Below the pieces are notes generated by a model, which was not told the origin of the DNA, ran no database searches, and worked only from the letters and a program-made list of their open reading frames with translations. This document shows positions 1-1,152 of a DNA stretch of 42,220 nt, piece after piece; the first letter of the stretch is position 1, and the number at the start of each line of letters is the position of its first letter. The position numbers were made by a program, and so were the translations under genes. The stretch lies in contig JAGXFS010000124.1 in the NCBI GenBank assembly GCA_024637275.1, positions 1 to 42,220 on the forward strand. Direction: 5' to 3'. Source of the stretch: Acidimicrobiia bacterium. GTDB lineage: Bacteria > Actinomycetota > Acidimicrobiia > Spongiisociales > JAENVV01.

Positions 1-304
1 CGACAAGGCAACCGGAGCGACCGTTGGTGACGTCGGCCTGCATGTACGGGCGGCCGATCCGTCGACCGCCGACGTCGGCTACACGATCGCCCGCAATTAT
101 CAGCGACAGGGCTATGCCTCCGAGGCGGTGGGAGCGATCATCGAGTACGCCTTCGACGTCGTCGGGGTTCGAACCATCTTCGCCAATGCGCTTGCCGAGA
201 ACGCGGCATCGCGCGGGGTCGCCGAGCGGGTTGGTATGGCGCTGGATAAACAGTGGCTGACCAATGACGGCGCCGAGCTGGTGCGCTACTCGATCGTTAA
301 CTAG
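1..304 (+). CDS. GNAT-family N-acetyltransferase, 5'-truncated by window edge
   Basis: Open frame from base 2 to TAG at 302-304: DKATGATVGDVGLHVRAADPSTADVGYTIARNYQRQGYASEAVGAIIEYAFDVVGVRTIFANALAENAASRGVAERVGM; GNAT (RimJ/RimL-like) YxxxxxxQGxASEA and N..S..v.e+.GM motifs. Confidence 0.85.
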   Translation, partial: DKATGATVGDVGLHVRAADPSTADVGYTIARNYQRQGYASEAVGAIIEYAFDVVGVRTIFANALAENAASRGVAERVGMALDKQWLTNDGAELVRYSIVN

Positions 305-387
305 CGCTGCTAGTGGTGATGGTCCCCGTGGCCATCATCATCGTGGGAGTGTGAATGGCCATCCGAACCGGAGGCGTCAGGACCCAC

Positions 388-540
388 TCAGCAACCGGGT
401 TCCCCGTGGTTGCCACAGCAACTCGTGCCGTTCTTGAGTTTGATCGCGTTGTTCTTGATGGTGAGGCGAAGCCGCTCGGCTAGATCGAGCTCGGAACGCA
501 CCCAGTTACCGACAACGTGTTTGAACCCTGCTCGTGCCAT
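388..540 (-). CDS. Small Cys-rich protein (50 aa to the TGA): MARAGFKHVVGNWVRSELDLAERLRLTIKNNAIKLKNGTSCCGNHGEPGC; may continue in frame through TGA to 310
   Basis: Only the 3' part of the 163-aa track ORF 388..879 looks coding; ATG at 540. The same frame continues past TGA (388-390) to TAG (310-312) as VGPDASGSDGHSHSHDDDGHGDHHH. Confidence 0.65.
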   Translation of the reverse strand: MARAGFKHVVGNWVRSELDLAERLRLTIKNNAIKLKNGTSCCGNHGEPGC

Positions 541-576
541 GGCCGGGAGCCTAGACGTTCCTGCAACAATGGCGGA

Positions 577-1152
577 GTGCAAACTCAGCTTCCCGATGGG
601 GAAACAATCACCATCCGGCCAATTGATCCGGCAGACCGCTCCCAACTGGTCTCCGGTTTCGAAGCCACCAGCGAACAGAGCCGGTTCTTCCGCTTTATGC
701 GGGGGGTTGATCGCCTGACGGAAACCGAGTTGGACTACCTGGTGAACGTTGACGGCAGGGACCACGTGGCGTTGGTTGCGGCGCTTGAGACTGGCCAGGG
801 AGTTGGGGTTGCTCGATATGTTCGCGACCCGTTCGACGCCACCGTGGCGGAGGCTGCGCTGATCGTCGTCGACGCTCATCAGGGACGTGGAGTCGGAACG
901 AAACTGCTGCAGGCTCTCGCCGACACCGCACTCGAAAACGGCATCGAAGCCTTCACCGCGTACGTGCTCCCGGACAATCGGGCCGTGGTCGACGCCATGA
1001 CGAGGGCTGGCGCGAATACCGAACCGGAAGATTCACTGCTCCGAATGACTATCCGACTACCGATCGACGCGTCGTTGTTCGCCGACAGCACCCTTCGAGC
1101 GGCGCTGCGACAAGCCGCCGCAGGGGCACTAAGCCTCAACGATCAGTTCTGA
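577..1152 (+). CDS. GNAT-family N-acetyltransferase
   Basis: GTG start at 577 (VQTQLPDGETITIRPIDPADRSQLVSGF...); acetyl-CoA loop VVDAHQGRGVGTKLLQALADTA; upstream part of the 517 ORF overlaps the divergent small gene. Confidence 0.85.
   Translation: MQTQLPDGETITIRPIDPADRSQLVSGFEATSEQSRFFRFMRGVDRLTETELDYLVNVDGRDHVALVAALETGQGVGVARYVRDPFDATVAEAALIVVDAHQGRGVGTKLLQALADTALENGIEAFTAYVLPDNRAVVDAMTRAGANTEPEDSLLRMTIRLPIDASLFADSTLRAALRQAAAGALSLNDQF

Follow-up and report, generated by a model that had tools for sequence, protein, structure and literature searches.

The window, a stretch of 42,220 nucleotides from an Acidimicrobiia genome, carries on its minus strand a small gene in which the apparent stop codon UGA is, in all likelihood, read as selenocysteine (Sec), and with hardly less assurance the gene can be predicted to encode a small selenoprotein of 76 residues. 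Both statements rest on sequence comparison, and there is no experimental proof of Sec. In the proposed mechanism, SelB with Sec-tRNA-Sec would bind a hairpin just 3' of the UGA, selenocysteine would be inserted as residue 51, right behind Cys50, and the ribosome would then read on through a short tail to end at TAG (Table 1). The recoding was first suggested in a preliminary description of this DNA, and is supported by the UGA column in the relatives, by Cys forms, by a covarying hairpin, by a coding tail and by the Sec machinery.

The core peptide before the TGA is MARAGFKHVVGNWVRSELDLAERLRLTIKNNAIKLKNGTSCCGNHGEPGC (MARAGFKH...CCGNHGEPGC; minus strand, window positions 310-540). An ORF caller is able to move the start of the gene out to 879; in the family alignment, the starts of the relatives (M[AS]R..., M[CP]...) correspond to position 540, which is therefore the likely start. 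The sequence and coordinates of the preliminary description were exact (TGA 388-390, TAG 310-312, with the frame open for 25 codons between them), and the hairpin folds as described there, with an apical GUU loop 19 nt past the UGA, a bulged U and an MFE of -18.7 kcal/mol. The gene is flanked by two ORFs that by eye resemble GNAT-like acetyltransferases, at 2-304 (+) and 517-1152 (+), one convergent and one divergent.

Table 1. Elements of the predicted selenoprotein gene, in window coordinates.
Feature	Position	Strand	Basis and remarks
N-terminal core, 50 codons	391-540	minus	start ATG 538-540; ends in CCGNHGEPGC; translation and family alignment
UGA, putatively read as selenocysteine (Sec51, right behind Cys50)	388-390	minus	TGA in 116/116 clustered TGA members; TGC in three relatives
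In-frame tail, 25 codons, His/Asp-rich, VGPDASGSDGHSHSHDDDGHGDHHH	313-387	minus	translation; third-codon-position excess in relatives; in-frame 30-nt indel
True stop TAG (predicted)	310-312	minus	sequence and translation
SECIS upper hairpin (predicted), GCC-UCCG-GUU-CGGA-(U)-GGC	358-375	minus	fold; covariation in 30 relatives
Apical loop GUU (366-368) and bulged U (361)	within 358-375	minus	fold
Complete predicted stem-loop, including lower GUGGG/CCCAC stem	343-387	minus	lower stem from single-sequence fold only

The UGA position, the hairpin and the in-frame tail recur across about 130 distinct relatives, which belong to Acidimicrobiia, Chloroflexota and Thermodesulfobacteriota. With one genome scanned per species, 37 loci were obtained from Acidimicrobiia, Chloroflexota, sulfate reducers and others, the nearest relative (92% identity) belonging to an Acidimicrobiia MAG (Actinomycetota). 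Within the window's class, a single query matched 27 of 296 genomes and a profile 32. Profile matches were also obtained in 39 of 346 genomes (about one in nine) of Thermodesulfobacteriota, sampled as the phylum of Ca. Desulfobia pelagia, and in 41 of 301 (about one in seven) of Chloroflexota, sampled as the phylum of an Anaerolineales genome. The invariant columns of the aligned core are two Asn, the CCG, one Gly and the PGC. One Chloroflexota genome harbors a tandem pair of different family members, both with UGA (L180, G895:C5:231466-231826). Another locus (L112, G472:C70) has an additional TGA just 5' of the CC motif, at a position occupied by Gln in relatives; it may reflect a sequencing error or decay, or with lower probability a second Sec.

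TGA stands directly behind the GC of the motif in every member except three Cys forms and L192 (G236:C42, genus g27), a degenerate copy reading RCCGFSTAP-stop without the GEPGC-UGA end and possibly a pseudogene. Neither TAA nor TAG was seen at the first-stop column among the relatives. Clustering at 85% left 116 TGA members, 27 of them from loci below 50% GC, and their second (tail) stops comprise 64 TGA, 31 TAG and 21 TAA. With TGA making up 55% of those stops, the chance of finding it at the first site in 116 of 116 is ~1e-30, assuming independent clusters. We therefore see very little room for the view that a 50-residue Cys-rich peptide really stops at the UGA, that the hairpin behind it is a conserved 3'-UTR element (terminator or stability) and that the tail is open by chance, as a true stop would not be expected to exclude TAA and TAG where 45% of the tail stops use them. 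Nor does a true stop sit well with relatives in which TGC replaces TGA and translation continues.

These relatives, three Chloroflexota loci (L120, L128 and L130), have Cys at the very column where the preliminary description had proposed looking for Cys or Sec in homologues, and they read past it as GCC-ATGSCSIGPEHPH (L120) and GCC-E (L128 and L130). The outcome that would have spoken against recoding, homologues with other stops at this site and no conserved in-frame tail or hairpin, was not met, as no other stop occurs there and the tail and hairpin are kept. The hairpin is gone in L120 and L128, and weakened but kept in L130. Neither a selA nor a tRNA-Sec match was found in the genome of L128 (G759), the completeness of which is unknown, and both are present in the genomes of L120 and L130. 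Judged by these sequences, the Cys forms would look like a Sec-to-Cys transition in which hairpin and machinery are lost later. The Cys forms also bear on whether UGA might be read through as another amino acid, by a near-cognate tRNA or because UGA is reassigned. Although the inserted residue is not named by sequence alone, we consider this exceedingly improbable: the residue that replaces UGA at this column is Cys, which is the usual counterpart of Sec; the occurrence of the family follows that of selA and tRNA-Sec; and neighboring genes such as ORF 517-1152 end in TGA, so that UGA is not globally reassigned.

Partial recoding to Sec is a separate matter, since both the 50-residue peptide and the Sec protein could be functional, perhaps in a selenium-dependent ratio. 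The core does end in an intact Cys-rich motif, and recoding in E. coli in vivo is reported to amount to 30-40% and to depend on selenium supply (PMC4513850). In the Cys homologues, however, the additional residue is retained and the protein goes on behind it, an indication that residue 51 is required, and there is no direct evidence that the short form has a function; we regard a dual product as unlikely.

The genome of the window contains the machinery for Sec insertion in large part. The preliminary description had called for selA, selB, selC and selD; selA (C80:4538-5839) adjoins selB (C80:2724-4517), and selD is present and is itself broken by a single TGA (HGAG-UGA-ACK), a second Sec-type codon. 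For selC, the evidence comes from relatives. No tRNA-Sec was found in the MAG of the window, which is 90.6% complete (Rfam, ARAGORN on parts, and an anticodon/T-arm pattern), but it is present in 29 of 30 other family-bearing genomes of the class that were searched, among them all three congeners and G278, and G197 is the only one of the 30 where it was not found. The regions around selA of the relatives contained no selC, and a 'tRNA-???' call in L209 was dismissed as a candidate, as it reads as coding sequence. The MAG itself seems to be a strain mixture: the SelD with HGAG-UGA-ACK occurs twice (G000:C58:4016-4945 and C51:5-928; L086, L087), and a second allele of the window locus (L088/L073, G000:C82:28780-29261), ended by a contig edge, has a flank ~93% identical.

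Across genomes, the family is linked to selA. In the one-genome-per-species scan, selA was above cut-off in 33 of 37 family genomes. In the window's class, it was detected in 31 of the 32 genomes with the family (all except G278), compared to 200 of 296 genomes overall (p = 3e-5), and in Chloroflexota in 36 of 37 genomes with a TGA member compared to 29 of 40 without the family (p = 0.002); neither value is corrected for relatedness. A true stop at the UGA would leave this link to selA and tRNA-Sec unaccounted for.

The fold of the window alone is unremarkable (z = -1.56 in energy against shuffles), and the case for the hairpin therefore rests on the relatives. As a G in the loop was a condition of the family scan, the controls for hairpin frequency were searched with this condition imposed as well. 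In a fixed-limit search of 116 rows, one of them (L188) wrongly assigned, a score of at least 15 was reached by 63% of the members, as against 12% among 455 further ORFs ending in TGA and 6% among shuffles, and a score of at least 12 by 85, 27 and 18%, respectively. GC-rich hairpins are thus common behind TGA-ended genes, with more than a quarter of the control ORFs reaching the lower score, a point that a true-stop reading can claim. The MFE of the 50 nt past the UGA was rejected as a discriminator, as values of -7.5 kcal/mol or lower occur in 94.8% of the family, 87.8% of shuffles and 89.7% of controls.

More telling is the pattern of substitution. Of 115 members, 113 fit a stricter search, and in these the UGA-to-loop distance is 15-25 nt (three at 15); at every one of the four inner pair levels, several different standard pairs are seen. 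The main loops in the family are GGUC, GU(U/C), CGUG(A/C) and GGU. RNAalifold, applied to a MAFFT alignment of 30 sequences made without regard to structure, returned a seven-pair stem with 94.3% of cells paired (73.7% when shuffled), changes on both sides of the stem in 46 cells (15.4 when shuffled) and a covariation of 0.558, compared to 0.168 for shuffles and at most 0.217 for slid versions; GGU is invariant in this alignment. The 30 rows were chosen largely for common spacing, which favors finding a stem. The published bSECIS model has an apical loop of 3-9 nt that starts with G, an upper stem of 4-16 bp, a UGA-to-loop spacing of 16-37 nt, and an MFE of -7.5 kcal/mol or lower (PMC13188914). 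The window hairpin meets all of these limits, with a loop of 3 nt (GUU), 4 bp, a bulge and 3 bp, a spacing of 19 nt and an MFE of -18.7 kcal/mol. Its proposed likeness to a bacterial SECIS is thus borne out by the covarying upper stem and by the G opening the loop; the bulged U, also invoked at the outset, is not the diagnostic feature.

Beyond the UGA, the sequence changes in the manner of coding sequence. In 61 equal-length pairs of tails, mismatches at codon positions 1, 2 and 3 number 112, 96 and 196, and in the part beyond the hairpin 28, 21 and 50 (18 pairs); the pairs are not independent in either set. The tail of the second allele on C82 in the same MAG is 10 codons longer and in frame (a 30-nt indel). 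Three loci of genus g120 of the window's class (L072, L074 and L075) have in common an extension of 64-74 residues past the UGA, coiled-coil-like by eye and with an excess of third-position changes, and the tail MTKDEARAAGLIK is common to several Chloroflexota. Both the third-position excess and the conserved extension argue against a chance-open frame behind a true stop. On the other side, the tail of many members is very short, with a minimum of one codon, so that the hairpin lies largely past the second stop. In Thermodesulfobacteriota, tails are mostly of 1-12 residues with the hairpin partly past the second stop, and the constraints on RNA and protein are therefore separate. Of the Cys-Sec pair and His-rich tail originally envisaged, the vicinal Cys-Sec is near-invariant, but the His-rich tail is a lineage feature, and the conserved core is therefore CCG[NH]xG[EQ]PGC-U.

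The product probably consists of a two-helix peptide and, behind it, a CCG[NH]xGEPGC-U center; the AlphaFold model shows two helices with a disordered tail, but its confidence is low (pLDDT 60). The likeliest biochemistry is thiol/selenol redox, a reading inferred from motif chemistry and sparse neighbors, to which we give an even chance and which is favored because CC and CU are near-invariant. The Cys-Sec pair would form a selenenylsulfide, for which either the Cys-Cys pair further upstream or a partner reductase could serve as exchange partner. Among the 75 loci scanned, no one partner gene proved to be conserved. A FAD disulfide reductase, identified by Pfam, lies on the same strand in 3 of the 75 (L034, L121 and L122), and sequence clustering adds L032; these reductases belong to the dihydrolipoyl dehydrogenase/MerA/glutathione reductase superfamily. 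DUF523-DUF1722 neighbors occur in 5 of the 75, all in Thermodesulfobacteriota (the name of PF04463 is 2-thiouracil desulfurase). An isoprenyl-transferase-like gene facing the family gene in Acidimicrobiia was rejected as a partner, as it is convergent.

By inference, metal binding may be a further role of the His/Asp-rich tail in Acidimicrobiia and many Chloroflexota. A selenoprotein that binds or carries metal, metalloid or selenium species, without redox turnover, is a somewhat doubtful but serious possibility: Cys, Sec and His are available as ligands, His-rich tails recur in these two groups, and L127 lies just upstream of genes with what by eye are MSCxxC heavy-metal-type domains. Such a role is harder to reconcile with the short, His-poor tails of most Thermodesulfobacteriota, and with the flavin disulfide reductases and DUF523-DUF1722 being the only recurrent neighbors.

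The family occurs in about one in nine of the class genomes sampled, yet is without a curated model, and ordinary gene callers cut it short at the UGA. According to the deep-Sep paper (PMC12013277), selenoproteins without Cys homologues may be filtered out, a statement that describes this family because its Cys forms are rare. The family enlarges the known selenoproteome of Acidimicrobiia, a group that goes unmentioned in two selenoprotein papers examined for its name. For study, the family provides a very small and tractable protein that has a Cys-Sec pair, together with a Sec-to-Cys series with hairpin decay, and it is a candidate marker of Sec use.

No match to the family was found in Pfam, NCBIfam (June 2026) or PDB chains, no motif listed in the 119-family selenoprotein catalogue of 2026 fits (PMC13188914; the table gives short motifs only), and the signature strings of the family had no text match in the open-access literature searched. 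As far as found, this is a new, undescribed family of a known kind, the bacterial selenoproteins; an earlier description under another name is not fully excluded, because the literature search covered open access only. KCU-star/DUF466 (YbdD-type, NF033934), with a C-terminal CU motif (PMC13188914 Table 1), is similar in being small, in its Cys-Sec pair and in probably being missed by ordinary gene calling, but the window family differs in its CCG[NH]xGEPGC-U motif and in having a tail behind Sec. None of 31 family members matched the DUF466 and KCU-star models (NF033934, Pfam). A comparison with an approximate DUF466 sequence gave no similarity either, the HMM scans being the real test. The CU motif and richness in Cys are shared with SaoC (NF040734, a Cys-Cys-COOH selenoprotein) and MbdU (NF045648, a metal-binding double selenoprotein), but the family has no NCBIfam match and a single Sec, whereas MbdU is listed with two (PMC13188914). 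SelD of the same genome (TIGR00476) has UGA recoding in common with the window gene, but is an unrelated protein.

Animal thioredoxin reductase has a C-terminal GCUG arm with a Gly-Cys-Sec redox center. The family resembles this arm in its Gly-Cys-Sec end, and a few of its genes adjoin flavin disulfide reductases; it differs in that the GCU center resides in a separate protein of 50-76 residues with an extra CC pair, and no homology is claimed. Tentatively, and with rather less than even confidence, we suggest an almost Sec-only micro-selenoprotein family of at least three phyla, in which the CC...GCU unit would work on its own in redox or metal(loid) handling, as a detachable equivalent of the Sec arm found at the C terminus of large reductases.
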